This document shows, in pieces, positions 6,156 through 58,722 of a stretch of 64,000 bases of DNA. Under the pieces are notes generated by a model, which was given only the letters and a program-made list of their open reading frames with translations, did no database searches and was not told where the DNA came from. Where the stretch lies: positions 3,016,192 to 3,080,191 of the forward strand of contig LR026961.1 in the NCBI GenBank assembly GCA_900498135.1. Direction: 5' to 3'. The stretch's first letter is position 1. Each line of letters begins with the position of its first letter. The position numbers were made by a program, and so were the translations under genes. The DNA comes from an uncultured Desulfatiglans sp. Lineage in GTDB: Bacteria; Desulfobacterota; DSM-4660; Desulfatiglandales; Desulfatiglandaceae.

Positions 6156-8018
6156 CTATACCTCCTTTATGGCGCCCTTGGGGCAGACCTGGATGCATAC
6201 CCCGCAGCCCGTGCAAAGGGCCTGGTTGACGGCCGTTTTCCCCAGGGCCTCGTCATGATAGAGAGCGGGGCACTCGAAGCGCTCGAGGCACAGGCGGCAT
6301 TCCACACAGTCATCCGTGACGGTCACCGTCCTGCGCACCGGAATGGCCTCTTTGCGGTAGGCGATGACACAGGGGTGGCGCGCGATGATCACGGCGATCC
6401 CGCCGTCGGGTTCAAGGGTGTAGCTGGCCGCCTCCTTGACGGCGCGGGTCATTTCGGCCAAGGCATAGGGGTCCACCACTCGCAGAAACTCGATCCCGCA
6501 GCCTTCCACCACCCTTTCGATCGAGACGGCCTTCCCCCGGGTTCCATCGGCGCGCAGGCCGAGCCCAGGGGTGGGCTGCATCCCGGTCATGGCGGTGATT
6601 TCGTTGTCGAGGATCACCAGGACGAAGCGTGCGTTGTTGTAGACGGCGTTGATCAACCCGGCCGTTCCGGAGTGGAAGAAGGTCGAATCGCCGATGGTGG
6701 CGACGACGGGCTGTGTCTCGCCGTCGGCTGCGAAGGCGTGGTAGAATCCAGCGGCCATGGTGATGCCGGCGCCCATGTCGAGGCACGTGTCGACGGCCCC
6801 GAGGTTGAGCCCGAGGGTGTAGCAGCCGATGTCCGAAGTGAAGATGGCCTTGGGCTGGGCCTTGCGTATGGCGAAGAAAGAGGCCCGGTGAGGGCACCCG
6901 GGGCACAGCGTGGGCCGGCGCATCGGCAGGCCGAGGCCTTCCACCAGGGCCCGCACCCCGAGGTCGGGGCCGGAGGAAAGCGGCTGCAGACCGGCCTCGT
7001 TCAGGGTCTTGTCCAGGATCGCGGCGATCCGCTCGGGAACGAGTTCGCCTTCGGCCGGGACATGTCCGGACAGACGGCCCAGGACCTTTTTACGGTCACC
7101 CAGGAGGTATTCGATGAAGGTGTCGGTTTCCTCCAGGACCAGGACCCGGTCGCATCGGTCCATGAAGACGTCGGCCGATTTGTAGGGGAAAGGAAAAGGA
7201 GCCCCGAGTTTGAGGATCGGGATATCGGAGAGGCCCTCCTCTGCCAGCAGGTCGGCCACGGCGGCGCTCGGCACCCCACCGGCCACGATGCCCAGGGGGA
7301 CTCGGGCGGGCGGGGCGGCGGCTCCCGCATTGAACGGTGCGAAGGCCTCGAAGCGCTCCTGGATGGCTTCGAGCTTCTGGTTCAGTTCGCCGTGGAGCTT
7401 CAACCTGAATTTTGGTGTGGCGGCCCAACGCAGGGGGTTCCTTTCGAAGGCAGCCTTCCCGGTGTCGGATGCAATGGGGCCCCAGGTCATGTTCTGCCTC
7501 GCATGGCAGACCCGGATCGCAGGCCGAAGGATGACCGGAAGGCGGAATTCCGCCGAAAGGTCCATCGCGGCCTTCACCATTTGCCGGGCCTCCTCGGGCG
7601 AGGAGGGATCGAAGACCGGCACCTTGGCAAGGCGCGCCATGAAGCGCGTGTCCTGTTCGGTCTGGGAGGAGTGCGGCCCCGGATCGTCGCACGAGATGAT
7701 GACCAGCGCGCCCGTAACGCCGAGGTAGGCTGAACTCATCAGGGAATCCGCGGCGACGTTGAGCCCGACCTGCTTCATGCAGCAGGCCGCCCGTTTCCCG
7801 GCCACGGCGGCGGCGTAGGCGGTGTCCAGTGCGACCTTTTCGTTCGTGGACCACTCGGTGTAGGCATGGATGCCCTCGGACTGCATCAGCCGCACCGTTT
7901 CGGGCAGGATTTCAGAGCTCGGGGTCCCGGGGTAGGAGGTCAGGACCTGGCAGCCCGCCTCCAGCAGGCCCAGCGCAATGGCCCCGTTTCCCAACAGAAA
8001 TTCAGAGCGCGTCGTCAC
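6156..8018 (-). CDS. iorA: Indolepyruvate:ferredoxin oxidoreductase, alpha subunit
   Basis: A 620-residue fused alpha subunit. The N-terminal part (LLGNGAIALGLLEAGCQ, SYPGTPSSEI) is the pyrimidine-binding half, and the middle holds the thiamine diphosphate site (LCPGCPHRASF, IGDSTFFHSGTAGLINAVYN). The C-terminus has two ferredoxin-type 4Fe-4S clusters (CVECRLCLERFECP and CTGCGVCIQVCPKGAI). It supplies ferredoxin electrons from aromatic amino acid breakdown, or runs reductively in synthesis. It overlaps the upstream Cys-rich gene by 4 bases (ATGA). Confidence 0.96.
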   Translation of the reverse strand: MTTRSEFLLGNGAIALGLLEAGCQVLTSYPGTPSSEILPETVRLMQSEGIHAYTEWSTNEKVALDTAYAAAVAGKRAACCMKQVGLNVAADSLMSSAYLGVTGALVIISCDDPGPHSSQTEQDTRFMARLAKVPVFDPSSPEEARQMVKAAMDLSAEFRLPVILRPAIRVCHARQNMTWGPIASDTGKAAFERNPLRWAATPKFRLKLHGELNQKLEAIQERFEAFAPFNAGAAAPPARVPLGIVAGGVPSAAVADLLAEEGLSDIPILKLGAPFPFPYKSADVFMDRCDRVLVLEETDTFIEYLLGDRKKVLGRLSGHVPAEGELVPERIAAILDKTLNEAGLQPLSSGPDLGVRALVEGLGLPMRRPTLCPGCPHRASFFAIRKAQPKAIFTSDIGCYTLGLNLGAVDTCLDMGAGITMAAGFYHAFAADGETQPVVATIGDSTFFHSGTAGLINAVYNNARFVLVILDNEITAMTGMQPTPGLGLRADGTRGKAVSIERVVEGCGIEFLRVVDPYALAEMTRAVKEAASYTLEPDGGIAVIIARHPCVIAYRKEAIPVRRTVTVTDDCVECRLCLERFECPALYHDEALGKTAVNQALCTGCGVCIQVCPKGAIKEV

Positions 8019-8293
8019 TTTTTCACGTTCCTTTCTTTGGCCTTTTCAATCAATTCGACCAGGGAAAGCAGTTTCGGCCTGGGAGGCGCCTCGAACACGG
8101 CATCCCACTCTTCCTGCGTCAATTCCGTGCGCAGGAAGGCCTCTACAGGGAAGTAGGGATGCCAGCAGATCAGGGTTCTCGAGCAGGGCAGCCCGTGGTT
8201 TTCGCGGCGGCAATAGGCGAAGCTGATCTGGTGCCCCAGCCGAGGGCATCGGATCTCGAAGTCATCGCCGGGGGGGACGATCGGATTTTCCAT
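8015..8293 (-). CDS. Small Cys-containing conserved protein coupled to iorA
   Basis: A 92-residue protein with four Cys at residues 16, 28, 37 and 43 (in CPRLGHQISFAYC and LPCSRTLICW), a spacing that could bind zinc or an Fe-S cluster. The C-terminal third is a charged helix. It overlaps iorA by an ATGA, which strongly implies a shared transcript and possibly a shared job, such as assembly or regulation of the oxidoreductase. The Shine-Dalgarno site is weak. I do not recognise a named family. Confidence 0.75.
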   Translation of the reverse strand: MENPIVPPGDDFEIRCPRLGHQISFAYCRRENHGLPCSRTLICWHPYFPVEAFLRTELTQEEWDAVFEAPPRPKLLSLVELIEKAKERNVKK

Positions 8294-8307
8294 GATTTAC
8301 CGGACAG

Positions 8308-8333
8308 GCCGAGGCCCCGTACGGGGCCTCGGG
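8308..8333 (-). terminator. Perfect GC-rich hairpin between trpB2 and the iorA operon
   Basis: CGAGGCCCCGTACGGGGCCTCG at 8310-8331 is a perfect palindrome. It follows the trpB2 stop (8349, minus strand) and precedes the small gene at 8293. No T-run follows, so it may be a weak terminator, a transcript stabiliser or a processing site within one long operon. Confidence 0.5.
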
Positions 8334-8348
8334 CAGGGATGAAGTGGG

Positions 8349-9725
8349 TTAACCGCGATACTGCTTCGGTTTGGGAAGGGAGGCGATGTCTCTGAGCGCG
8401 CGCTGGATCTCCTCCTCGGCCAGGGCGTGATCCTCGAGTTTTCCGGACAGATAGGCCTCGTAGGCCGCCATGTCCACCAGCCCGTGGCCGCTCCAGTTGA
8501 AGAGGATGACCTTTTCCTTCCCTTCCTCCTTGGCCTTGAGGGCCTCGCGGATGGCCATCGCTATGGCGTGATCCGTCTCGGGCGCGCTGATGAAGCCTTC
8601 CGTACGGGCGAAGGTGATCCCGGCCTTGAAGGTCTCGAGCTGAGGCACGGCCTCCGCCCGGATCAGGTTGCTCATGGCGAGCTGGCTGATGATGGGGGCC
8701 ATCCCGTGGTAGCGGAGGCCGCCGGCGTGGATGCCTTCCGGGACGAAGTTGTGCCCGAGGGTGTACATCGGAAGGAGCGGGGTCATTTGGACCGTGTCAC
8801 CGAAATCATAGGCGAAGGGGCCGCGGGTCATGGTCGGGCAGGAGGTCGGCTCGACGCCGATGATGTCGATATCCTTGCCGTTGATCTTGTCACGCACGAA
8901 GGGGAGGCAGATCCCGGCGAAGTTGCTTCCGCCCCCGGCGCAGCCGATGATCACGTCCGGATAATCGCCGGCCATGGCCATCTGCTTCTGGCACTCCAGG
9001 CCGTTGATCGTCTGGTGCATCATCACGTGGTTCAGGACGCTTCCGAGGGAGTATTTCGTGTCTTCATCCTGGACGGCGGCTTCCACCGCTTCGCTGATGG
9101 CGATTCCGAGGCTGCCTGGCGATTCGGGGTTCTGCGCGAGGATGCTGCGCCCGGCCTGTGTCTCGGTGCTCGGGCTGGCGACGCACTGGCCGCCCCAGGT
9201 TTCCATCATGATCCGCCGATAAGGCTTCTGATGGAAGCTCACCTTGACCATGTACACCTTGGCTTCGATCCCGAAGAGCGAGCAGCAGAAGCAGAGCGCG
9301 CTGCCCCACTGCCCGGCCCCCGTCTCGGTCGTGATGCGCTTTGTCCCGGAGATCTTGTTGTAGTAGACCTGGGCGATGGCGGTGTTCGGTTTGTGGCTCC
9401 CGGCCGGGCTCACCCCTTCATTCTTGTAATAGATCCTTGCCGGCGTCTGGAGGAACTTTTCGAGGGCATAGGCGCGGTAAAGGGGGGTAGGGCGCCAGAT
9501 GAGATATTTTTCCAGCACCTCGTCAGGGATGTCGATGTACGAATCCTGACTGACTTCCTGCTCGATCAGGGGCATGGGGAAGATCGGCAGAAGGTCCTCC
9601 GGCCCTACGGGCTGACCGGTGCCCGGGTGCAGAGGGGGTTCCATGGGGGTGGGCATGTCGGGCATCACGTTGTACCACTGCCTTGGTATCTCCGATTCCG
9701 GCAACACGATTTTCCTGGTCTGCAT
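8349..9725 (-). CDS. trpB: TrpB2-type tryptophan synthase beta subunit
   Basis: A 458-residue PLP enzyme of the TrpB2 branch (long form, with an N-terminal extension beginning [18 protein letters not shown]). The PLP lysine lies in [18 protein letters not shown] and the phosphate-binding loop is [12 protein letters not shown]. TrpB2 condenses indole with serine or O-phosphoserine. There is no trpA, trpC or other trp gene nearby, so it probably salvages free indole or serves the neighbouring aryl-pyruvate metabolism instead of de novo synthesis. A strong GGAGG precedes the ATG. Confidence 0.95.
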
Positions 9726-28433: not shown

Positions 28434-30167
28434 TCAGCCCTTGACAATCCTCGGGATCATCATGTGGTTCTGGGGGCAGATGGAGGTCGGGTTCTGGTAA
28501 CAGCATCCGGCGAAGGCCGCGATGTATTTGCGCAGCAGCGGCAGGGATACGATCTCGTCGACGAAGCCGCGTTTGGCGCAGTAGACCGGGCGGGATTTGT
28601 CGTAATACTCCTTCACCAGGGCGTTCATCTTTTCGATGACCGGCTCGAGGGGCCGACCGCCGTCCTTTTCCTTGACGAGGCGCCGTGCGAACGACGCGGC
28701 TGCGGCCGTCTCACCGTGCATGACGTAGATCTCCGTCATGGGGGTGCCCAGGGTGAAGGCGTTGTGGTTGTTGGCCGTGGGGCCGCCCATGATGTAGTGC
28801 GCCGCCGCTGTGCCTTTGCGCAGGACAACGCAGATCATGGGAACGTCCGTCTGCTCGATGGAGTAGATGAGCGACTGCCCCAGGCCCAGCAGTTCGGCCT
28901 TTTCAGCGATATCGCCCACGTCGATACCGGAGGTGTCCTGGAACCAGACGATTGGAACGCGGTCACGCCCGCACAGGGTCACGAACTCGTTCATCTTGAT
29001 GAGACCCTGACGGTAGAGCTTGCCGCCGATGCCCATGTAATCCGCGTATTCCGGATACTTGGCGCCCAGGAACCCCTGGCGGTTGCCGATGAAGCCCACG
29101 AGGAACCCGTCGATTTTGGCAAGCCCCGTGTAGACCTCCGGCCCGTAGCCCGGGCGGAACTCCATGTGCTCGCTGTTGTCGAAGATGCGTGAGAGGACTT
29201 CGTCGAAATTGTAGCTTCGCTTCTGGTTGAAGGCGACGAGGTAATCGAGGTCCTCTCCGGGGAAACGGGGTTCCTTCGGTTCGGCGACCCGGAAGAAGGA
29301 CGGATCGTAGGCCGGCATCATGTCCATGTACTTCTTGAGGGCGTCCAAGACCCCCTGTTCGGTCTCGTACACTTCCTTGAAAAAGCCTGTTTCGTTGTGA
29401 TGGATAGGCACGCTGCCCGGGGGTACTTCCTTGAAGTGCCGGGTGGCCTCGATCAGCTGCTCGGCCCCTTCCATGTCGAAGTAGCCCTTCGGACTCATGC
29501 CGCTGACGATGCCGCCTCCGCCGACAGCGATGTTGGCGTCCTTGTGGGCGATCAACAGCGTCGGGCTGATCCCTTGGTAGCCGCCGCCCGCCGGGTTGGT
29601 TCCGTAGATCCCGGCCAGGATGGGCACGCCCACCTTTTCGAGTTCGGCATGGCGGAAAAAGGTCGTGCCGTTACCGCGGCGATTGGCGTAGACCTCTTCC
29701 TGCTCGGGAAGTTTGACGCCGCTGCAGTTGACCAGCCACACCAGGGGCACATGCAGGCGTTTGGCCATGTCGGTGACCCGGAGCTGGTTGTCGGCCTGCC
29801 CGGCGATCCATGCCCCGGCCATGACCTTGTTGTCGAACCCGATCACGACGGCCCACTTGCCGTTGATCTTGGCGAGTCCGTCGATGACACCGGTGGTTCC
29901 CTCCTCGTTGAACAGGGGGTCGTACAGGGTGTGCAGCGGGCACCAGGTGCCGGGATCGATCAAATACTCGATCCGTTCCCAGACGGTCATCTGCCCGCGT
30001 TTCTTGATCTTTTCAGCCGGGATGCCCGCGTTTTTCACAGCCTCGATGGCCTCGGCCACCGTCTTCTCGACCTCGCGGATCTCTTTGACGTTCTGTTCCC
30101 CGGATTTCTTCTGTCCTTCGGTAAGCTCTTTACCGAAGGATTCCATCTTCTCAAAATACGGTCGCAT
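28434..30167 (-). CDS. gcdA: Glutaconyl-CoA decarboxylase alpha subunit (carboxyltransferase)
   Basis: A 577-residue carboxyltransferase very similar along its length to clostridial and Acidaminococcus GcdA: LHVPLVWLVNCSGVKLPEQ, GIYGTNPAGGGYQGISPT, VGGGGIVSGMSPKG, GGKLYRQGLIKMNEFVTLC and IVWFQDTSGIDVGD. It moves the carboxyl group of glutaconyl-CoA to biotin; with membrane subunits it forms crotonyl-CoA and pumps sodium. Those beta, gamma and delta subunits are not in the window. The start MRPYFEKM at 30167 has GGAGG upstream. It follows the glutaryl-CoA dehydrogenase by 20 bases. Confidence 0.95.
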   Translation of the reverse strand: MRPYFEKMESFGKELTEGQKKSGEQNVKEIREVEKTVAEAIEAVKNAGIPAEKIKKRGQMTVWERIEYLIDPGTWCPLHTLYDPLFNEEGTTGVIDGLAKINGKWAVVIGFDNKVMAGAWIAGQADNQLRVTDMAKRLHVPLVWLVNCSGVKLPEQEEVYANRRGNGTTFFRHAELEKVGVPILAGIYGTNPAGGGYQGISPTLLIAHKDANIAVGGGGIVSGMSPKGYFDMEGAEQLIEATRHFKEVPPGSVPIHHNETGFFKEVYETEQGVLDALKKYMDMMPAYDPSFFRVAEPKEPRFPGEDLDYLVAFNQKRSYNFDEVLSRIFDNSEHMEFRPGYGPEVYTGLAKIDGFLVGFIGNRQGFLGAKYPEYADYMGIGGKLYRQGLIKMNEFVTLCGRDRVPIVWFQDTSGIDVGDIAEKAELLGLGQSLIYSIEQTDVPMICVVLRKGTAAAHYIMGGPTANNHNAFTLGTPMTEIYVMHGETAAAASFARRLVKEKDGGRPLEPVIEKMNALVKEYYDKSRPVYCAKRGFVDEIVSLPLLRKYIAAFAGCCYQNPTSICPQNHMMIPRIVKG

Positions 30168-30187
30168 GGTCTTCCTCCGTTTCCGAT

Positions 30188-31351
30188 CTACCGGTTCGCC
30201 TTCCGGATGCCGAGTTGATCCAGGGCCACGATCCACTTGCAGATGTTGGTGGACCCTTCTACGATCTGGTAGGTCGGGGCATCGCGGTAGTAACGGGCCA
30301 CGGGGTATTCCGTGGAGTAGCCGTAGGCCCCGAGGATCTTCATGGCCACCTGGGAGGCCTTTACAGCCACTTCACCGGCGAGGTACTTGGCCTGGGCGAC
30401 CTCGAGGGTGTTGTTCAGGTTTCCCTGATCCTTCTGCCACGCGGCCTTGTAGACCACGAGCCTTGCGGCTTCGATCTCGCAGGTGATCTGGGCGATGAGG
30501 TCCTGGTTCATCTGAAACTGACCGATGGGCTTCCCGAACTGCTCGCGCTCCGCGCAGTAGGCGGTGGCCGCGTCCAGGCAGGCCTGCGCGACGCCGATGC
30601 CGCCGGCGGCCGCCGAGAGGCGAGTCTGATTCAGGGAGCCGAAGACGATCTTGGCGCCGTCCCCGGGCTTGCCGAGGATGTTTTCCTTCGGAACCTTCGT
30701 GTCTTCCAGGTAGATCTCTCCGGTCGGTGAAGAGCGCGATCCCATCTTGTCGAGGTTCGTCGTGTGGATCCCGTTGAAGTTCTTGGGCTCGATGACAAAG
30801 GCCGAAAGGCCTCGGCCCCGGGCTTCTTTATCCGTGTAGGCATAAAAGATCAGGGCATCGGCGACCGAGGTATTGGAGATCCAGGTCTTGGATCCATTGA
30901 TGAGCCAGTGGTCGCCCTTGTCGGCAGCCGTGGACTTCATGTTCATGACATCGGAGCCGGCGTTTGGTTCGGTGATACCGAAGCCGCCCATGTGTTCGGC
31001 GCTGACGAGCTTCGGGATGTACTTCTTCTTCAGGTCTTCCGTACCGTAGCGGAAGATCGTGAAGGCGCACCCGAGGGTCTGCATGTTGATCTGAACCCTG
31101 AGGGAACTCGAGGCCCGGGCGATCTCCTCCGTCAGGATCATGGCGGCCAGCCAGCCCATTTCATTGCCGCCGTACTCCTCGGGGATGACGGTGCCGAAGA
31201 ATCCGAGCTCGCCCATGGGCCTGACGGCTTCTTCGTAAGGGAAATAATGGTTTTCATCCCATTCGTCCGCAAACGGGGCGATCTTTTCGGCGGCAAAGTC
31301 GCGCGCCATGTCACGCAGCATCTGTAGCTCTTCACTTAACTCAAATTCCAT
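30188..31351 (-). CDS. Glutaryl-CoA dehydrogenase, probably non-decarboxylating
   Basis: A 387-residue acyl-CoA dehydrogenase whose whole length resembles the Desulfococcus non-decarboxylating glutaryl-CoA dehydrogenase (YFPYEEAVRPMGELGFFG, FGITEPNAGSDVMNM, ILGKPGDGAKIVFGSLNQTR, YGYSTEYPVARYYRDAPTY). The residue before the catalytic Glu is Val (IVEGST); decarboxylating enzymes have Tyr there (TYEGT). After the substrate Arg it reads RVQIN, not RSAMS. Both changes match the enzyme that stops at glutaconyl-CoA, which GcdA then decarboxylates. The start MEFELSEEL has GGAGGAG upstream. Confidence 0.93.
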   Translation of the reverse strand: MEFELSEELQMLRDMARDFAAEKIAPFADEWDENHYFPYEEAVRPMGELGFFGTVIPEEYGGNEMGWLAAMILTEEIARASSSLRVQINMQTLGCAFTIFRYGTEDLKKKYIPKLVSAEHMGGFGITEPNAGSDVMNMKSTAADKGDHWLINGSKTWISNTSVADALIFYAYTDKEARGRGLSAFVIEPKNFNGIHTTNLDKMGSRSSPTGEIYLEDTKVPKENILGKPGDGAKIVFGSLNQTRLSAAAGGIGVAQACLDAATAYCAEREQFGKPIGQFQMNQDLIAQITCEIEAARLVVYKAAWQKDQGNLNNTLEVAQAKYLAGEVAVKASQVAMKILGAYGYSTEYPVARYYRDAPTYQIVEGSTNICKWIVALDQLGIRKANR

Positions 31352-31556
31352 AAACATCTCCTCCTTTTTTATCCAGTTGGGGCAATCCCGCATGGCCACG
31401 CGCCGGCGTCAACGATCCGCCGATGTTTGTGCCCCATGATTTTGATTCAACGGCTGGCAGGAAATTGGCCGCTTTTTGAACAGTATTCAAAAAATGCTAT
31501 CTATAGAACAATCTATTTGGAATAGCAACCGGTAAATTTACATTGTAGCTATTTTC
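31352..31556. other. Upstream region of the glutaryl-CoA dehydrogenase operon
   Basis: Non-coding leader of the gdh-gcdA operon. The AT-rich part (31470-31550) may carry its promoter, but no site is certain. It continues into repeat fragments. Confidence 0.4.
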
Positions 31557-33780: not shown

Positions 33781-35082
33781 ATGGAGCCGATTGCTATTAA
33801 CCGTAAGGAGGGCAAACTTAGGGTCGCCCCCGAGTGGGCGGACGTTTGCTTTACCTGTGGGACCTGCGCCGGCGGTTGCCCGGTGACCGGCGTCGACGGA
33901 ATGGACCCCAGGAAAGCCGTGCGCATGGCCGCCCTCGGGCTGGATCAGGAGCTGATCGACTCGCGGTTTCCCTGGGTCTGCACGCTCTGTGGCCGCTGCG
34001 AATACGCCTGTCCGCAAGGGGTGGAGATCCTCAAGATGATGCGCCGCGCCCGGACCCTGCGCGCGAGGGACAAGGTCCCCGGCCCGATCCACAAGGGCGT
34101 CGTGATGGATCTGGAAAGGGGGAACAACCTGGGCATCCCGAAGGAGGATTTCCTCTTTCTGCTGGCGGATCTGGGGCGGGAAATGGACGAGGACGAGGGC
34201 TTCCCGGGGTTCTATGTCCCCGTGGACAAGAAGGGCGCCAACGTCTTCGTGACGATCAATTCGAAGGAGCCTTTCGGCGAACCGGATGACATGAAGTTCT
34301 GGTGGAGGATCTTCTATGCCGCCAAGGAGGACTGGACCACCGCCTCGACCGAGTGGGAAGGGGTCAACTGGGCTCTTTTCTCAGGCGACGACGAATCCAT
34401 GAAGGCGTTGGTGGGACGGATCGTCAACCACATGGAGCGCCTGGAGTGCAAGACGCTCCTGTTGCCGGAATGAGGCCACGCCTACTATGCGACCAGGCTT
34501 GGTCTGCAAACGTGGTACCCTGAAGTCTTTGAAAAGTACAAGGTGGTTTCCGTCCACGATCTTCTGAAGGAATACATCGAAACGGGGCGGATCAAACTCG
34601 ACAAGTCGATCCACCACGAGCTGACGACGATCCACGACCCCTGCAACTACGGCCGGAAGAGCCAGAAGGCCTTCGGGCACGGCTATTTCGAGGAGCCCCG
34701 CTGGATCACCCAGCAGTGCTGCGAGAACTTCGTCGAGATGCAGCCGAACCGGATGAACAACTTCTGCTGCGGAGCCGGCGGCGGCGCTTGGGCGATGCCC
34801 TACGAGAACGAGCGGATTTATTACGGCCGCGTCAAGGCGCAGCAGATCCGGGACACCGGGGCGGAGCTGGTGATCGCGCCGTGCCATAACTGCCGGGATC
34901 AGATTATGAAGTCCCTGACCAAGGAATACGATCTGGGGATCGAGACCAAGTACCTTTGGGAGCTGGTGGCCGATTCGCTGATCGTGGAGCCGTGGAGCGA
35001 AGAAGAGATCGAGCAGGCCCGGGCGCTGCGGGATGAGCAGTTCGAGCGGGACGGCATCGATCTCGAAGCGGAGATGTACTAG
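33781..35082 (+). CDS. Selenocysteine-containing HdrD-like Fe-S oxidoreductase (in-frame UGA)
   Basis: One 433-residue gene interrupted by UGA at 34471-34473, best read as selenocysteine 231 (LLLPE-U-GHAYYATR). The Cys version of the same protein is encoded at 57400-58722 (MIMPDCGGGSYGCREG aligns). N-terminal clusters: C23/C26/C29/C33 (CFTCGTCAGGCP) and C67/C70/C73/C77 (CTLCGRCEYACP). The C-terminal half has a CCG-type motif (HDPCNYGRK, NNFCCGAGGGAW, CHNCRDQI) as in heterodisulfide reductase HdrD and DsrK. The frame remains open with normal codons for 203 residues past the UGA. AGGAGGG precedes the ATG. The electron partner is unknown; no cytochrome b subunit is adjacent. Confidence 0.92.
34474..34520 (+). 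promoter_or_regulatory. Putative bacterial SECIS element
   Basis: Immediately after the UGA, GGCCACG/CGTGGT-type outer pairing (CCACG at about 34476-34480 with CGTGG at 34511-34515) encloses an inner stem GACCA (34491-34495) and TGGTC (34500-34504) with a GGCT loop. The apical loop lies about 22 bases past the UGA, the distance SelB needs. Confidence 0.75.
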
Positions 35083-35233: not shown

Positions 35234-35727
<494 letters not shown>

Positions 35728-36033
35728 CTAGAAGACGATGTAACGGTCGCAGTCCTCGATCAACTCGCCATGCCTGGCCTGGGTGGCATAGTCCTTTTCG
35801 TCGATGCCCGGAACCGGCGGTTTCAGATGGTGGCTCTCGAATCCGACGTTGCACAGGGCCATCTTGGCGAGGCCTTCAAGTTCGCTGAATCTGGGGTCCT
35901 GCGTGAGCAGGGTGCCCAAGTGGGTGAAAAAGATCGAGACCTCCACGTCTTTCCGGCGGGCGGCGAGGCACAGGTCGATCAGCTTGTCCAGATGCTTGTC
36001 GGAAGTGACGAAGACTCCTAGATGCTTGCCCAT
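35728..36033 (-). CDS. DsrE-like protein 2
   Basis: A 101-residue DsrE/DsrF-type protein (MGKHLGVFVTSDKHLDKLID, KDVEVSIFFTHLGTLL). Conserved-looking Cys residues occur at LIDLCLAARR, MALCNVGFE and EDCDRYIVF. AAGGAG precedes the ATG. It lies 25 bases after tusA in the same direction. Function inferred as a sulfur- or selenium-relay subunit. Confidence 0.82.
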   Translation of the reverse strand: MGKHLGVFVTSDKHLDKLIDLCLAARRKDVEVSIFFTHLGTLLTQDPRFSELEGLAKMALCNVGFESHHLKPPVPGIDEKDYATQARHGELIEDCDRYIVF

Positions 36034-36058
36034 CAGTGACTCCTTTTCCGGATGGAGA

Positions 36059-36298
36059 CTACTTCACTTTGATGTAAAAACGGCTGAATCCCTCATCCTG
36101 CTTTTCGCCCAGATATTCATGTCCGGACCGCTTCGAGAAGGCGGGAAGATCATTGCGGGTGCCGGGATCGGTGCCGAGGATCTCTAGGATTTGGCCGGAT
36201 TTCATCGTGCCGATCAGCTTCTTGGTCTTGAGGATTGGCATGGGGCAGCTTAGGCCGCGGCAATCGAGGGTTTGGTCGGGGGTTACGTTATCTACCAT
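36059..36298 (-). CDS. tusA: TusA-family sulfur-carrier protein
   Basis: A 79-residue TusA/SirA protein. The signature LDCRGLSCPMPILKTKK has the persulfide-forming Cys at residue 18 in CPMP and an additional Cys at 13. TusA proteins pass sulfur, and some related proteins selenium, between donors and acceptors. The start at 36298 has a perfect AAGGAGG; the longer open frame upstream is non-homologous. It is encoded between yedE and the DsrE proteins, a pairing typical of YedE-coupled carriers. Confidence 0.93.
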   Translation of the reverse strand: MVDNVTPDQTLDCRGLSCPMPILKTKKLIGTMKSGQILEILGTDPGTRNDLPAFSKRSGHEYLGEKQDEGFSRFYIKVK

Positions 36299-36414
36299 GA
36301 TGTGTTCCTCCTTCGGATATAATAATAGTGAAACGGGTTGTCGTTTTTCATCGGAAAAGGCACGCTTGCAGCCTTCCCGGAACCAGACTCGAAGATTTCT
36401 CACCCTGCAATGGT

Positions 36415-37617
36415 CTACAAGTCGACGGTGAAGGTGTCCGTTTCCTCGTTCCAGGTAGCGACTACGAAATAGACGAAGAGAAACACCAGCAACAGGATGA
36501 CGGTCCACCGGTACGTCAGGAAATCAGGCAGGAAAACGCGGTGGCCCATGAGTTTGTTCAGGCCCTCCGATGTCATCATCCAAAGCTTGAAAAGCGAGGT
36601 CGAGAGCGCAAAGAAGACCACGGCGATCATGAGCTTGATCTGGCCTTCACCGGCGCGCCAGACCGAGCCGCTGCCGCAGCCGCCCGCCACCACCATGCCG
36701 ACGCCGAAGATGATGCCGCCCACGAGGCCCCCGAACCAGAAGGCCTGAGGCACGTAGACCGATTCCTCCCGCAGGCCGGTCCACTTGAGGGCCGCAAAGC
36801 CGATGACGCTGATCATGAGGCTCAGGGCGATGGCACGCGCCACCTCTCCTTCGCCCGTCATGAAGGGGTCTCTGAAGCCGCGCACGAAGCAGAAACGGCA
36901 GCGTTGAATGATGATTCCAAAAGCCAGCCCGCACAGGAGCAGGCCCCCCTCGCGGGTAAGAGCCTCACGGCTGTAAGCGATGGATGCAGCAACCGCTCCG
37001 ATGAGCACCAGGACCCCCAGGTAGGGGGAGAGATCGCGCAGATGGAGTCCGCCTTTATCCCCCTCGCCGGCCGGCGCGTGTCCGCTCGAGCCCGAGGGCA
37101 GGTGCTCCAACTCCCAGTAAAGGTATCGTATCCCCAGGTAGGCGCCGATGAAGAGCCCGATCATCATGGCAAGGCCGCTCAGCGACAGCGCGCTCAGGGC
37201 GGTGTAAAAGCCGCCTACATTGCACCCGCCTGCCATGGCGGCCCCCACGCCCATGAGGATGCCTCCGACGACGCCTTTGGCCAGTTCGAGCGGGGGGGCC
37301 ATCCGCAGGGCGAACTGTTTCGAGAGGAGCGCCGATGCGAAGGCACCCCATAAAAGCCCTACGGTCAGGATGGAGTTGGTGGAGGTGACGGGGGAGGCAG
37401 TGGGGAAGGGATAGATGCCTACGGCACTGAAAAACCAGTCGCCCCAGTTGCGGAGTCCGCCTGCCACCCCCCAGGGCCTGGCCCAGGCAAAGGTGATGAC
37501 GCTCATGAGCCCGATAAGCACTCCGCCCAGCCAGATAGGCCAGTTTTCGTAAAAAACGGCATGGTAGCCTCGCCTCAAAATGCCGACAAGAACCGGGTTT
37601 CCTCTCTCCTCGCTCAT
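36415..37617 (-). CDS. yedE: YeeE/YedE-family membrane transporter
   Basis: A 400-residue inner-membrane protein with about ten hydrophobic segments and internal duplication. The conserved thiol motifs of YeeE/YedE are present: MAGGCNVGGFYTAL, QRCRFCFVRGFRDP and VAGGCGSGSVWRAGEG. Relatives import thiosulfate (TsuA) or are associated with selenium metabolism (YedE/FdhT). A TusA-like gene directly downstream supports coupled uptake and transfer. Substrate is not determined by the sequence. Confidence 0.9.
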   Translation of the reverse strand: MSEERGNPVLVGILRRGYHAVFYENWPIWLGGVLIGLMSVITFAWARPWGVAGGLRNWGDWFFSAVGIYPFPTASPVTSTNSILTVGLLWGAFASALLSKQFALRMAPPLELAKGVVGGILMGVGAAMAGGCNVGGFYTALSALSLSGLAMMIGLFIGAYLGIRYLYWELEHLPSGSSGHAPAGEGDKGGLHLRDLSPYLGVLVLIGAVAASIAYSREALTREGGLLLCGLAFGIIIQRCRFCFVRGFRDPFMTGEGEVARAIALSLMISVIGFAALKWTGLREESVYVPQAFWFGGLVGGIIFGVGMVVAGGCGSGSVWRAGEGQIKLMIAVVFFALSTSLFKLWMMTSEGLNKLMGHRVFLPDFLTYRWTVILLLVFLFVYFVVATWNEETDTFTVDL

Positions 37618-42257: not shown

Positions 42258-42857
42258 TCAGATGTTGATGACCGAATCGGCCAGCTGCATGGCGGTGACG
42301 ATATCGAGCATGTTGGTGGTTTCGCCCACCTCCTTTTCCTGCAGCAGGTCGAAATGCGTCAGACACGTCCCGCAGACCAGGATCGTGATTCCCGCGGCCT
42401 CGAGCTCCTTGAGCAAAGGAAGAACGGCCGATCCCCTTACGGTCATCTTGACGCCGTTGTTGACGAAAACGAGGCGCCAGAGTTCTCCGCCCATCTCCTT
42501 GAGGGTCTTCAAAAAGCTCACCATCAGCTTGGCGCCCAGTTCGTCGTCGCCATGACCCATCTTGTCGTGGGTGACCATCACCATGATCTTCCGCGTCTCT
42601 TCACGGCTGGGTGCATCCGGTGCGGGGGCGGCCTCCGCGTCCCCGGACTTTCGGCCCTCGACACGAATATGCCGCTCTTCCTCCACAGTGGAAACCGTGA
42701 AGCCTTGCGTGCGCAGAAACCGGGAGACGTTTTCCCGGGAGGCTTCACCATCGACGAGGACGGCGACGTCGCGGGACGGGTTTTTTTCGAGCCATTCCTT
42801 GGTCTGGAGAACCGGGGCAGGGCAGGCCAATCCGCGGCAATCGATTTCGTGGGTCAT
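42258..42857 (-). CDS. yedF: Selenium-metabolism sulfurtransferase-like protein YedF
   Basis: A 199-residue protein with a TusA-like N-terminal domain (IDCRGLACPAPVLQTKEWL, Cys 7 and 12) and a DsrE-like C-terminal domain (MVMVTHDKMGHGDDELG, RLVFVNNGVKMTVRGS, ITILVCGTCLTHFDLL). This two-domain layout is the YedF family that co-occurs with SelD in selenium-using bacteria. AGGAG lies upstream. It follows selD on the same strand with a 189-base gap. It may carry selenide or sulfide to SelD. Confidence 0.93.
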   Translation of the reverse strand: MTHEIDCRGLACPAPVLQTKEWLEKNPSRDVAVLVDGEASRENVSRFLRTQGFTVSTVEEERHIRVEGRKSGDAEAAPAPDAPSREETRKIMVMVTHDKMGHGDDELGAKLMVSFLKTLKEMGGELWRLVFVNNGVKMTVRGSAVLPLLKELEAAGITILVCGTCLTHFDLLQEKEVGETTNMLDIVTAMQLADSVINI

Positions 42858-43046: not shown

Positions 43047-44099
43047 TCAGGACGCCTCCACGACGATGCGGCCGACAGGCTCTGGAACGATCTCGCCCAC
43101 GAGCGCCGCGCAATCCACCCCTTCCTGGAGGAGTGCGGAGGCCAATTCCTCAGCCGGGCCGGCCGGTGCTGATATCAGCAACCCGCCCGACGTCTGCGGA
43201 TCGAAGAGCAGATCCGACAGTACGGGGTCCAGCTCGGAAAGCCCATCGACCATGCAGGCCCTGAACGCTTTGTTGCGATAGGCGCCCGCCGGGAAGAGGC
43301 CCATGCTTCCGTATTCGATCGCCTCCGGCAGGATGGGGATGCGGGAGGCTTGCACGACGGCGCCGAACCCGGATCCTTCGACCATCTCGGCCAGGTGCCC
43401 CAGGAAACCGAACCCCGTGATGTCCGTGCAGGCATGGACGGGGTAATGCGCCATGACCTCCGCCGCCTTGCGGTTCAGCGTAGCCATCAGGCGGGTCACG
43501 CGCTCGACCAGTTCCGGCGGCGCCATATCGGCTTTGATGGCCGTATTGATGACCCCGGTCCCCAGGGGCTTCGTCAGGATCAGCCGGTCGCCCGGGCGGA
43601 GGTTCTTCTTGGTGAGCACCCGGTCGGGGTGGATGAAGCCCGTGACGGAAAGGCCGTATTTGAGCTCCTTGTCCTCGACACTGTGCCCGCCTATCAGCAC
43701 GACTTCCGCCTCCCGCAGCTTGGCGATTCCGCCCTCGATCACGCTCCGGAAGACGGACAGGTCCATTTCCTTGAGGGGAAATGCCACCAGATTCATGGCG
43801 GTTTTGGGCACACCCCCCATGGCGTAGACATCGCTCAGGGCGTTGGCCGCTGCGATCTGACCGAACCAGTAAGGGTCATCGACGATCGGGGTGAAGAAAT
43901 CGACGGTCTGTATCAGCGCCAGCTGGTCGGAGACCTTGTAAACCCCGGCATCGTCCGCCTTCTCGAGCCCCACCAGTACGTTTTCGTCCGTCGGGAACAC
44001 GATTCCGCAAAGCGCCTGCTCCAGGTCCCCTGGAGGAAGTTTCGAGGCTCAACCGGACCCCGAGACGGTTTCCGTCAACCTGCGGGTTGTGTTTTCCAT
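43047..44099 (-). CDS. selD: Selenophosphate synthetase, selenocysteine form (in-frame UGA)
   Basis: A 350-residue SelD that makes selenophosphate from selenide and ATP. Reading from ATG at 44099 gives MENTTRRLTETVSGSG-U-ASK, with UGA at 44049-44051 as residue 17, exactly where SelD has its catalytic Cys or Sec (usual form LT...G-C/U-xxK). The remaining part is classical: TVDFFTPIVDDPYWFGQIAA, GGHSVEDKELKYGLSVTG, CTDITGFGFLGHL, DPQTSGGLL. A gene call starting at the GTG at 44000 loses this active-site loop. Directly upstream of yedF. Confidence 0.94.
44014..44048 (-). promoter_or_regulatory. Putative SECIS element of selD
   Basis: On the minus strand, directly after the UGA, GCCT (44045-44048) pairs with AGGC (44014-44017), and an inner perfect stem CTCCAG/CTGGAG (within 44019-44035) carries a short GGGAC loop. 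Spacing from UGA to the apical loop (about 20 bases) fits a bacterial SECIS. Confidence 0.8.
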
Positions 44100-44223
44100 G
44101 GCGATCGGCATCCTCGTCCTTTTCGGCCGGAAAGGGTCGTTCGTGCTTTAGGCGTTATACCCCACCGTTCTCGAAGGGGCCTGCTGGCGGGGGAACTCGC
44201 AGAAAGGCCCCTGCCTGCTACCT

Positions 44224-54534: not shown

Positions 54535-55344
54535 TCAGGGCTGCTCGAACCGGCAGCCGGCAGCCAGGGCCTCCGGGGTCAAGTTGTACAGGGCATCGAG
54601 GAAGGCGGTCATAAAACTGCCCGGCCCGTGGCAACTGGAAGCACCGATTTCACCGGCCAGTCCGAAGAAGGCGAGCGCGGTCGCCGCAGCGCTCCAAGGA
54701 TCAGGGTCGACCGCCAGGAACGCCCCGATGGTGACCGTTGCAGCGCAGCCGGTCCCCGTAATGGTCGACATCAGCGGGTGCCCGTTTCCCACCTTGACGG
54801 TCCTCACGCCGTCTGTGACGAGGTCCCTCGGGCCGGTGACGGCGAAGACCGCATGCCGGTTCAGGGCCATTTCCTCGACCCTGTCTCCGAGATCTTCGAC
54901 GGTGTGCAGCGAGTCCACCCCTTTCGTCTTCGAACCGGTCCGGGCCAGGGCGAGGATCTCCGAGGCGTTCCCCCTGATGACGGATGGTTTTGCCGCCTCC
55001 ATGATTTCCAGGGCGGTCCGGGTTCGGAGTTCGGTCGCGCCTGCGCCCACCGGGTCCAGAATGACGGGTTTGTGCAATTCAGCGGCTTTTCTGCCGGCCT
55101 TGAGCATCGAAGCAATCCAAGGGCCGCTGAGGGTCCCGATGTTCAGAACCAGCGCTCCGGCCAAAGAGACCATTTCCTCCACTTCTTCCTCGGCGTGGGC
55201 CATGACCGGACTTGCGCCCATCGCAAGAAGGGTGTTGGCGGTGAAGTTCATCACCACGAAATTGGTGATGCTGTGGACCAGAGGTTTCTGGTCCCGGACG
55301 GATGTCAGATTGCGAACCGCCTGTTCCTTTAACGTATCGAGCAT
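54535..55344 (-). CDS. thiM: Hydroxyethylthiazole kinase
   Basis: A 269-residue salvage kinase: PLVHSITNFVVMNFTANTLL, ILDPVGAGATELRT, RGNASEI and TGTGCAATVTIGAF (anion hole) are present. It phosphorylates 4-methyl-5-hydroxyethylthiazole. The ATG at 55344 is preceded by a GGGGGG run. First gene after the TPP riboswitch; with thiE, thiL and thiD it forms a salvage operon without thiC or thiG in the window. Confidence 0.96.
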   Translation of the reverse strand: MLDTLKEQAVRNLTSVRDQKPLVHSITNFVVMNFTANTLLAMGASPVMAHAEEEVEEMVSLAGALVLNIGTLSGPWIASMLKAGRKAAELHKPVILDPVGAGATELRTRTALEIMEAAKPSVIRGNASEILALARTGSKTKGVDSLHTVEDLGDRVEEMALNRHAVFAVTGPRDLVTDGVRTVKVGNGHPLMSTITGTGCAATVTIGAFLAVDPDPWSAAATALAFFGLAGEIGASSCHGPGSFMTAFLDALYNLTPEALAAGCRFEQP

Positions 55345-55371
55345 GCTCAACCCCCCGAAAGATGACCCATG

Positions 55372-55404
55372 AAAAAAGCCGCAACCCATCGCGCGGGAAG
55401 CGGC
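55372..55404 (-). terminator. Riboswitch-controlled intrinsic terminator
   Basis: On the minus strand GCCGC-TT-CCC, a seven-base loop, and GGG-TT-GCGGC are followed by six Ts, 28 bases before the thiM ATG. Its position just behind the TPP aptamer marks it as the expression platform. Confidence 0.85.
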
Positions 55405-55439
55405 CTCCTGGTCCATCCAAATGAATGGAGCCTTCCTTC

Positions 55440-55510
55440 TTATCCCTACGCTGGCATGACCCAGATCAGGTTCAACGGGTATAATCTCAGGCCTTTAAGG
55501 CCACCCCGAA
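55440..55510 (-). promoter_or_regulatory. TPP riboswitch (THI element)
   Basis: Minus strand reads GGGGUGGCC, then CUGAGAUUAUACCCGU, GAACCUGAUCUGGGUCAUGCC and AGCGUAGGG, the conserved aptamer of the thiamine pyrophosphate riboswitch. It lies upstream of thiM and the terminator at 55372, so TPP should cause premature termination of thiM-thiE-thiL-thiD. Confidence 0.97.
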
Positions 55511-55665
55511 ATCTGATTTTTCACAATTTATCCTTCATTTTAAAGAGGCGATACCGGGCTGTCAAGAGGGAGGTTCGATGCGGAACTGAAAAACCGATGG
55601 TGCTGAGCCAGGCTGTGGAGAAAGCTATGCGCCGACAGGGAACGTCCGGTTCGTGGGCGAGGCGT

Positions 55666-56832
55666 TCAGTTGGCCTTACCACCGTGGGATCGGCGCGGGT
55701 CATCGTGTTCCCGATACTCCTGAAGGGCACGCGAAACGGTTTTTCCGCAGGTTTCTTCAAAACGCTTTTCGAGGGCCTGCACTTTGTCGATCCCGCGCCT
55801 ATCCGCTTCGGATCCCTCACTTTCCCCGAAGCAGGATGACGGTGTCCCCACCGAAGAGGCCGCGGTGCCGGTAGCAGCCCCCCGGCGAAGATGACAGTCG
55901 GCCAGGAGCAGGATATCCGCCTCCTTCAGGGGCCCTGTGGAGAGAGGGTCGATGTGTGCAGCGGTGGCCAGGGTTTCAGCCACACGCCCGAAGCCGATGT
56001 CCTTTAGAAACGCGGGCAGGCTTTCCGGATGCTCGGATGCTGCAGGCTTGAGATGCTGCAGGAGTGCAGCCGCCTCGAGGCGTTGGAGGTCCAGAGTGTG
56101 CCCGCATGCCGTGAGGGTATGCCCCAGGAAAGTGGCTAGACACGATGCCTCCTGAATGCGGCGGAGTTCTTCCGGCGGGGTGTTCAGACTGCGAAGCAGT
56201 GCAAGGCATTCCTCCCGGTCCGGGATGTCCTGCCGGGGCAGTGCTAAGAGAAGGGCCCGATATTTTTCGGGGGTGTCCATGTCCAGCAGCATGAGCCGAT
56301 CGGGTACGTCCACCTCCACGCAGTTGCCGGCTTGGGACTGGAAAAAACCTCGCAGCCCATAAGGGCCTTGCCATTGCAGGATGGCCTCGGCCCAGCCCGC
56401 ATCCAGGAGGGGGGGGTGGCCTCTTCTACCCGAGAAACGCGGAATGAAGATCCCTTTGCGCGTCGAGGCGTCAAGCGCGTTCGCCAGGAAGCGAAAGGTG
56501 CCCGGCCGCACGAGCGGCGTGTCCACCGGAAGGACGAAAAAGCCGTCGAGGCCTCGAGGGAGGCTTTGGATCCCGGTCTGGATGGAGGAGAACATCCCCT
56601 CTTCGAAGTGCGGGTTGTGGACCGCCACGGCCCCCGAGGCGGCCAGTCGCCCCGCGAGTTCATCGGCACGAAATCCTGTGATCACGTGAATGTCGCTGAG
56701 CCCTATGCTCCTGAGGTTCCGGATAAGATGCTCCGCCACCGTCGTTTCTCCGAACGGGAGGAGGGGTTTGAAGGCCCCCATCCTGGAGGAGAAGCCGGCG
56801 GCGAGCACGATCACGCCGAGGCGTTTTTGCAT
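55666..56832 (-). CDS. MobA-like nucleotidyltransferase fused to an HD-like domain
   Basis: A 388-residue protein. Residues 1-190 are a MobA/MocA-type NTP transferase (VIVLAAGFSSRMGAFKPLLP, FFVLPVDTPLVRPGTF). Residues from about 215 to 330 are helical and resemble the HD-domain region of bacterial NTP transferase/HD fusions (LATFLGHTLTACGHTLDLQRLEAA, EADILLLADCHLRRG), but the HD pair is replaced (ALLQHLKPAA), so the phosphohydrolase site is probably dead. Low-complexity tail. GGAG precedes the ATG at 56832. Role unknown; such fusions occur near molybdenum hydroxylases. Confidence 0.82.
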   Translation of the reverse strand: MQKRLGVIVLAAGFSSRMGAFKPLLPFGETTVAEHLIRNLRSIGLSDIHVITGFRADELAGRLAASGAVAVHNPHFEEGMFSSIQTGIQSLPRGLDGFFVLPVDTPLVRPGTFRFLANALDASTRKGIFIPRFSGRRGHPPLLDAGWAEAILQWQGPYGLRGFFQSQAGNCVEVDVPDRLMLLDMDTPEKYRALLLALPRQDIPDREECLALLRSLNTPPEELRRIQEASCLATFLGHTLTACGHTLDLQRLEAAALLQHLKPAASEHPESLPAFLKDIGFGRVAETLATAAHIDPLSTGPLKEADILLLADCHLRRGAATGTAASSVGTPSSCFGESEGSEADRRGIDKVQALEKRFEETCGKTVSRALQEYREHDDPRRSHGGKAN

Positions 56833-56988
56833 CGATTGGACTCCGGGTAGGAAAACTCGCTCGGGTGGTCCCGGTCCCAGGCAGGGATACAGAGGCGGCA
56901 TTCCCCGCCCTGGAGCCGTTGAGGCGGAGAAAATCCCCTTCCGCTACGAGGCACCGAAACCGGACCCTTTGAGGAGTATCAATATAGT

Positions 56989-57399: not shown

Positions 57400-58722
57400 C
57401 TACCATTCCTGGTCGAGATCGACGCCCAGCCGTTCCCATTGGGCGGCACCCTCGGCTTCGCCCCGGGCGACCTCATCTTCGGTCCAGGGGTCCAGTACGA
57501 GGCTGTCGGCGACCAGTTCCCAGATGTATTTCACCTCGTACTTGTAATCCGGGTAGAACTTGGGGATGCGCTTCATGATCTGGTCGTGGCAGTTGGAGCA
57601 GCCGACGACCACCACGTGGGCGCCCGAATTCTTGATCTGGTTGTACTTCATGCGTCCATGCCAGGCGGCTTCTTCCTCGTAGGGTCCGGGCCACATGCCG
57701 CCGCCGGCGCCGCAGCAGAAGTTGTTGGCGCGGCCCGGCTCCATATCCACGAATTCGTCCACGCACTGCTGGATGATCCAGCGCGGTTCGTCATAGTAAC
57801 CCTTCCCGAAGTGCCGTTCGAGTTCGCGACCGTGTTTACAGGAGTCATGCCAGGTGAAGATCTTGCCGGCGTTGACGCTCTTGTCGAGCTTGATGCGGCC
57901 GGTCTCGATGAGTTCCTTCAGATAATCGTAGAGGTAGATATAATTGATCTCGTTGTCGGGATTCTCGTGGACGCACATCTTCATGCCTTCCCGGCAGCCG
58001 TAGGACCCGCCGCCGCAGTCGGGCATGATCATGCGCTTGATCCGATGCGTCTTCACGAAGTCGATCTTCCGGCGTGCGAGTTCCTTAATGGCGTCATAGT
58101 TGCCGGTAAAGAGCCCCCAGTCGACCGACTCCCAGTTCTCAGAAGGGACCGTCCAGTTTTCTTTGGCGGCATAAAAGATCTTCCACCACCATTTCATGTC
58201 CTCGTTGTCCGCAAAGACCTCTTTGGAGTTGGGGAAGAAGAGGATGTCGGCGTCGTCCTTGTCGACGGGGACGTAGAAGCCCGGCAATTCCTCCTCGGCC
58301 AGCTCGTTGCCGAGGTCTGAGAGCAGGAAGAAATAGTCTGTCTGGGGAATGGCCATGTTGTTGCCGGTGCTCAGGGCATTCGCAACGCCCTTGTGGAGGA
58401 TCCCGGGGACCTCGTCGCGGGGCCGCAGGTGCTTCATGTGCAGCATGATCCAGGGGATGTCGATGCCCATCGGGCAGGCGTAGGCGCAGCGGCCGCAGCC
58501 GGTGCAGAGCCAGGGGAACTTTGAACTCACCACCTCGTCCAGCATGCCTAAGACCAGCATGCGCAGAACCTTGCGGGTATCCCATCCCTCCATTCCGGGG
58601 GTCCCCGTGATGGGGCAGCCATTGGTGCAGGTGCCGCAGGTCATGCAGGCGTTGAGATCGAATTTGGATAAATGGTCCTGAACGTCCTTGGGTAGTCTTT
58701 TCGGGCTGAGAGCCTCTGTCAT
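57400..58722 (-). CDS. HdrD-like Fe-S oxidoreductase (cysteine form)
   Basis: A 440-residue paralogue of the selenoprotein at 33781-35082. N-terminal 4Fe-4S motifs CMTCGTCTNGCP and CTGCGRCAYACP, then a C-terminal CCG-type region (WHDSCKHGRE, NNFCCGAGGGMW, GCSNCHDQI). At the selenocysteine position it has Cys (MIMPDCGGGSYGC), with an additional Cys seven residues later. Such proteins resemble HdrD and DsrK and probably pass electrons from or to a thiol/disulfide system. No membrane cytochrome partner is adjacent. Confidence 0.9.
   Translation of the reverse strand: MTEALSPKRLPKDVQDHLSKFDLNACMTCGTCTNGCPITGTPGMEGWDTRKVLRMLVLGMLDEVVSSKFPWLCTGCGRCAYACPMGIDIPWIMLHMKHLRPRDEVPGILHKGVANALSTGNNMAIPQTDYFFLLSDLGNELAEEELPGFYVPVDKDDADILFFPNSKEVFADNEDMKWWWKIFYAAKENWTVPSENWESVDWGLFTGNYDAIKELARRKIDFVKTHRIKRMIMPDCGGGSYGCREGMKMCVHENPDNEINYIYLYDYLKELIETGRIKLDKSVNAGKIFTWHDSCKHGRELERHFGKGYYDEPRWIIQQCVDEFVDMEPGRANNFCCGAGGGMWPGPYEEEAAWHGRMKYNQIKNSGAHVVVVGCSNCHDQIMKRIPKFYPDYKYEVKYIWELVADSLVLDPWTEDEVARGEAEGAAQWERLGVDLDQEW

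Follow-up and report, generated by a model that had tools for sequence, protein, structure and literature searches.

An HdrD-type Fe-S oxidoreductase gene of an uncultured Desulfatiglans sp. with an in-frame UGA very likely decoded as selenocysteine

The UGA that interrupts an Fe-S oxidoreductase gene of an uncultured Desulfatiglans sp. is very likely decoded as selenocysteine (Sec), giving a single protein of the HdrD type. The gene lies in a stretch of 64,000 nucleotides (C1:3016192-3080191, hereafter the window) of a complete genome of 4.80 Mb (G000), and the selenoprotein call is a computational one, based on genes, alignments and RNA covariation. It is well supported that the gene is a member of a selenoprotein family already known from sulfate-reducing bacteria. 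New here is a large, almost all-Sec and well-delimited orthologous group within that family, whose gene often closes hdrA-flxDCBA operons and, in the window's order, stands apart from them next to glutaryl-CoA dehydrogenase. The gene and its Sec codon are:

33781..35082, plus strand: Sec-containing HdrD/DsrK-like Fe-S oxidoreductase gene, single frame, 433 aa, U231
34471..34473, plus strand: selenocysteine codon 231, an in-frame UGA in the context LLLPE-U-GHAYY, at a column that holds only Sec or Cys

The frame contains one TGA, at codon 231, and no other stop; the open lengths on its two sides (690 and 609 bases) and the position of the UGA, as given by a first-pass annotation of the window, proved exact on re-reading. 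That annotation had also expected a pipeline to report two truncated genes here, and ordinary gene calling indeed splits the locus into pieces of 230 and 179 aa. Automatic annotation usually halves such genes, so that a conserved component of electron flow in sulfate reducers is easily missed in pathway reconstructions.

Homologues were compared at the UGA column, as the first-pass annotation had proposed. With all subfamilies pooled, the 145 distinct homologues divide at this position into 125 with Sec and 20 with Cys, and none has another residue. Around 40 matches from other members of the order (81-99% identity) each have exactly one TGA, always in PE-U-GHAY, which excludes chance. A close orthologue is present in 36 of the 85 genomes of the window's class; the full-length ones have exactly one internal TGA each, and additional TAA or TAG codons are limited to draft or fragmentary cases. 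Scanning contigs with peptide patterns that leave out the Sec position yielded 80 further loci, all 80 with the UGA in (L/Y)PE-U-GHAY, and the UGA is conserved across the phylum as well as the order. The closest named relative found was strain NaphS2 (L116), an aromatic degrader. According to the tree, at least nine changes between Sec and Cys are needed, seven of them forced by well-supported branches, and Cys members exist within the same clade (L214-L217, L223 and L224). The motif E-C-G-[H/T] is retained in DsrK-like and HmcF/TmcB-like proteins too.

A short stem spans positions +18 to +36 relative to the UGA:

34489..34507, plus strand: bacterial SECIS-like hairpin, GCGACCA-GGCT-TGGTCTGC, with a bulged U and a GG apical loop, recognized by covariation and folding energies

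The first-pass annotation had pointed to a hairpin of plausible geometry behind the UGA, and this hairpin is real: it covaries across genomes and its stability in the window exceeds that of 98.2% of synonymous recodings. The GG of the apical loop is found in 96 of 104 distinct sequences, and the stem occurs in two registers, with compensating changes in both. Pair 23-30 of register A is C-G (ACC...GGT) in 52 distinct sequences and U-A (ACU...AGU) in 21, with zero mismatches. On a tree built with the hairpin region masked, this pair changed seven times, both sides together each time. Restricted to well-supported branches, five of five independent pairs change jointly, all in one direction, a small number that taken alone gives p = 0.06. 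Mean folding energy is -9.3 kcal/mol for Sec genes and -3.9 kcal/mol for Cys genes. A search with Rfam RF00031 (SECIS_1) gave no match in G000, and none in the control genomes either; the SECIS was assessed by covariation and folding energy. The switch between C-G and U-A also replaces Gly by Ser in the protein (ATRLGL/ATRLSL), and this polymorphism tracks the stem pairing exactly in the window (34489-34507) and 88 homologous loci. At this site the RNA structure dictates the protein residue. Among the Cys homologues, L217 (G321, 7205-8848) has a strong SECIS-like stem that lacks the GG loop, and it is probably a recent Sec-to-Cys conversion.

These data bear on two other readings of the UGA. 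The codon might be a true stop between two proteins, one HdrC-like and one HdrB-like, the second starting from the GTG at 34543, 72 nt past the UGA; HdrC and HdrB are indeed separate genes in other systems. The 23 intervening codons are, however, kept as protein: variation amounts to 5.3, 8.0 and 30.0% at codon positions 1, 2 and 3, and such mainly third-position variation indicates that the stretch is translated. Together with the restriction of the column to Sec or Cys in more than 140 proteins, and with a covarying SECIS placed exactly behind the UGA, this led us to reject the two-protein arrangement, which we regard as highly improbable. A pseudogene or a sequencing error at codon 231, which would typically show up as one in-frame stop, has in our estimate a negligible probability. 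Independent assemblies of about 40 order members and of dozens of further genera show the same UGA, the codons vary as is typical of selection, and UGA conservation and covariation together refute this explanation.

The genome is equipped to insert Sec. The search for tRNA-Sec, selA and selB suggested by the first-pass annotation retrieved all three: selB scored above its family cut-off, selA was found, and there is one tRNA-Sec with anticodon UCA. The fourth gene, selD, lies inside the window:

43047..44102, minus strand: SelD of the Sec type, with its own UGA at 44049-44051 (SG-U-ASKLPPG), start codon inferred; supplies selenophosphate

The selenophosphate synthetase is thus itself a selenoprotein (UGA context SG-U-ASKLPPGDLEQAL), and a plain ORF call, starting at 44000, misses its beginning. 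In G000, ten or more HdrA-like loci were observed, several with an in-frame TGA, which marks this genome as selenoprotein-rich. Two of these loci (1001579-1002874 and 2602313-2603608) have identical scores, as do nearby HdrD-like matches, which suggests a duplicated Hdr cluster.

The protein is an HdrD-type fusion with the HdrD/DsrK/TmcB/EtfD fold: a single chain begins with an HdrC-like part and continues into an HdrB-like one. The cluster motifs of its two halves are:

33847..34011, plus strand: two [4Fe-4S] ferredoxin motifs of the HdrC-like half (Cys 23, 26, 29, 33, 67, 70, 73 and 77)
34642..34893, plus strand: CCG noncubane-cluster motif of the HdrB-like half (Cys 288, 329, 330, 368 and 371)

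Pfam assigns a 4Fe-4S dicluster domain (Fer4_8/Fer4_17) and a CCG domain. The HdrC-like half was delimited by the Fer4_8/Fer4_17 matches, its invariant Cys and a fold match to HdrC; the CCG motif by the Pfam domain, invariant columns and alignment of its Cys with Cys637/672/673/709/712 of EtfD. Invariant in an alignment of 43 sequences are the eight cubane Cys, the five CCG Cys, the Sec/Cys231 column and Gly232, while His233 is kept in more than 90%. The solved folds closest to the AlphaFold2 model (pLDDT 91, pTM 0.90) are mycobacterial EtfD, with Z 26.2 across 382 residues, followed by HdrB at Z about 20 and HdrC at Z 11. The best NCBIfam matches, nearly full length, are HmcF (214 bits, cut-off 750), TmcB (193, cut-off 735) and DsrK (164, cut-off 400); all are far under the cut-offs, so that the protein is not assigned to any of these three equivalogs. 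The HdrD/DsrK-like family named in the first-pass annotation is supported.

HdrB has two complete CCG motifs. Of the two, the 43 sequences keep only the C-terminal one invariant, with its five Cys, and Sec/Cys231 is the sole remnant of the N-terminal set. In the profile alignment U231 corresponds to Cys581 of EtfD and H233 to His583. The former helps to hold a linear [3Fe-4S] cluster in EtfD, and the latter binds the noncubane cluster as its sixth ligand and renders that cluster non-catalytic (PMC13083937). Judged from the alignment, Sec231 would take the place of one ligand of the absent second cluster. Since the other ligands of that cluster are missing, Sec231 is expected in the pocket between the CCG halves, where it should face the single noncubane cluster.

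A Cys paralogue is encoded in the same window:

57403..58722, minus strand: Cys paralogue, 51% identity, member of an all-Cys clade (MPD-C-GGGS)

The first-pass annotation placed it at 57400-58722 and had it aligning across the UGA with Cys at that column, as it does. Its clade is all-Cys (PDCGG), has no conserved His and is separate from the Sec clade. At a cut-off of E<=1e-40, and with many class assemblies incomplete, it accompanies the Sec gene in three of the 36 Sec-bearing genomes of the class (G000, G039 and G058). Because of this separate clade and rare co-occurrence, we rejected the idea that the paralogue is a dedicated backup for selenium starvation. Its adjoining genes encode a MobA-like NTP transferase and a hydroxyethylthiazole kinase (54538-56901, minus strand), unexpected company for an HdrD-like protein.

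In the window, the Sec gene stands alone, outside any hdrA-frhD-frhG-frhA operon, the context that was typical, not defining, in the 2006 description of the family. It is divergent from a pair of genes on the other strand:

30188..31399, minus strand: glutaryl-CoA dehydrogenase, non-decarboxylating type (NCBIfam NF045552, 783 bits, cut-off 470)
28434..30236, minus strand: acyl-CoA carboxylase/decarboxylase carboxyltransferase subunit (TIGR01117, below cut-off), adjoining the glutaryl-CoA dehydrogenase

Of 23 same-order loci, 15 retain this divergent glutaryl-CoA dehydrogenase. Downstream, at 35404-37617 and 42258-42857 (minus strand), are genes for two small proteins that have no Pfam match, TusA, a YedE-type transporter and a TusA-DsrE (YedF-like) protein. 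Together these genes, close to SelD, form a selenium/sulfur relay set. The first-pass annotation had stressed the location of the Sec gene beside this set, but the functional link is weak, as the genes are arranged tail-to-tail and this neighbourhood is kept in just 6-7 of 28 testable relatives in the order, less often than that of the glutaryl-CoA dehydrogenase.

Outside the order the context differs. Among the 54 outside-order loci with enough upstream sequence, 17 have the Sec gene directly 3' of flxA, where it ends an hdrA-flxD-flxC-flxB-flxA operon. Within the order, most loci have it apart from the flx operon; in four members it follows hdrA-hdrC-hdrB, and in one (G065) it is still located about 2 kb beyond flxB. 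G000 has its own hdrA-flxDCBA operon at 2.368-2.377 Mb (L248, 4461-12979), with Sec in hdrA and flxD/mvhD, and this operon ends without an HdrB, HdrC or HdrD gene.

Computation shows the recoding signal and the fold, a Sec/Cys column that is conserved, and motifs for two cubane clusters and for one noncubane cluster with five Cys; partner and substrate are what we infer in the following. The UGA would be decoded as Sec by SelB and tRNA-Sec with the SECIS hairpin just behind it, and the product would be a soluble HdrC-HdrB fusion. Electrons may enter from a flavin donor, cross both cubane clusters and reach the noncubane [4Fe-4S] cluster, or take the opposite course. Sec231 probably faces the noncubane cluster from the interdomain pocket that in HdrB would house a second such cluster. 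As a selenol of low pKa, Sec231 could take one sulfur of a disulfide (or polysulfide) and the cluster the other; alternatively, it might be an exchangeable cluster ligand. Disulfide chemistry at Sec231 is in our view quite possible, though the chances fall somewhat short of even. The donor would probably be a flavoprotein of the HdrA/Flx type, judging by relatives in which the gene closes an hdrA-flxDCBA operon. For the window's order, whose gene is detached and adjoins glutaryl-CoA dehydrogenase, ETF or an acyl-CoA-dehydrogenase chain may serve instead.

How the protein is partnered can be read in two ways. It could be the catalytic subunit of an HdrA-FlxDCBA complex that became separated from its operon in G000, for which a detached partner is attractive since the G000 operon itself has no HdrB, HdrC or HdrD; the position next after flxA in the 17 outside-order relatives and the proximity to flxB in G065 also point this way. 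Co-occurrence in the class is weak, however: of the genomes that carry the Sec gene 29 of 36 have FlxB, and of those that lack it 34 of 49. Being nearly as common without the gene, it gives no support for Flx as an obligate partner, and obligate pairing as a detached Flx-Hdr subunit was rejected on this test. Moreover, the hdrA-hdrC-hdrB set that precedes the gene in four order members needs no further HdrD. We consider the catalytic-subunit role a plausible one, while leaning slightly against it. The protein could also be a soluble EtfD/DsrK-like carrier between ETF, fed by the glutaryl-CoA dehydrogenase chain, and a membrane complex, with Sec tuning or ligating the cluster and no disulfide cleavage taking place. 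EtfD is the best fold match, the dehydrogenase neighbour is retained in most order members, and the His that makes the EtfD cluster non-catalytic (PMC13083937) is retained in the window protein as well. Such a carrier would nevertheless have no membrane part here, and no etf or membrane subunit gene adjoins it in the window. Beyond the order its neighbours are HdrA/Flx genes and not acyl-CoA dehydrogenases, and so strictly kept a Sec suggests chemistry over plain electron transfer. We hold the carrier role to be possible, but lean more clearly against it.

A wider proposal is that an Hdr-like branch exists in which one Sec replaces one of the two catalytic noncubane [4Fe-4S] clusters of HdrB, and that in many Desulfobacterota the fusion supplants HdrBC in Flx-type electron-bifurcating complexes. 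We offer this as speculative and rather unlikely; if true, disulfides would be cleaved in this Sec-bearing branch by one cluster plus one selenol. As a large, nearly all-Sec group with few Cys exceptions, the orthologues described here allow clean tests of the reason for retaining Sec next to a noncubane cluster, and of whether one selenol can replace a second cluster.

With regard to known systems, a Sec-containing 'Fe-S oxidoreductase (GlpC)' family was reported by Zhang et al. (2006; PMC1794560), in agreement with the statement of the first-pass annotation that such proteins had been described from Deltaproteobacteria, and a 2026 review lists an 'Fe-S oxidoreductase-like protein' (PTHR43551) with the motif UGH (PMC13188914). 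Strittmatter et al. (2009; PMC2702500) found a Sec HdrD (HdrD4) among the soluble HdrC-HdrB fusions of Desulfobacterium autotrophicum HRM2, where Sec and non-Sec paralogues occur, one or more of each, in every Hdr group. The five Sec genes listed in the D. multivorans genome paper include hdrA, mvhD and bamE, and no hdrD. The novelty that the first-pass annotation saw in the pairing of Sec and Cys paralogues therefore fails, as the UGH family was known in 2006 and Sec HdrD with Sec/Cys paralogues in 2009, for every Hdr group; the paralogue in the window is, besides, not a paired backup.

The window protein is a CCG-type Fe-S oxidoreductase with Sec in U-G-H. It shares with the Sec GlpC/UGH family (WP_174406253.1), to which it is likened by motif and description only, this same motif, the occurrence in Deltaproteobacteria and the vicinity of hdrA and mvhD genes. 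The operon published in 2006 is glpC-hdrA-frhD-frhG-frhA, whereas the relatives here have hdrA-flxDCBA or hdrA-hdrC-hdrB, and the Sec GlpC of 2006 may be nearer to a clade with NTE-U-GH, of about 40% identity. HdrD4 of D. autotrophicum HRM2 is, by description, likewise a soluble HdrC-HdrB fusion with Sec and with Cys paralogues in the same genome. HmcF, TmcB and DsrK match over nearly the full length and keep the ECG[H/T] motif, but the scores are far below the equivalog cut-offs and no membrane partner gene lies alongside. With mycobacterial EtfD (9OJN) and methanogen HdrBC the protein shares the fold, the noncubane CCG motif and the His next to the Sec position. Unlike both, it has a single Sec in place of a second cluster, and unlike EtfD it has no N-terminal heme b membrane domain, its 433-aa model aligning from EtfD residue 286. 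Finally, FlxABCD-HdrABC is resembled in that hdrA, flxD, flxC, flxB and flxA adjoin the gene in many relatives, and differs in that one Sec-containing fusion stands instead of HdrBC, encoded in the window genome by a detached gene.
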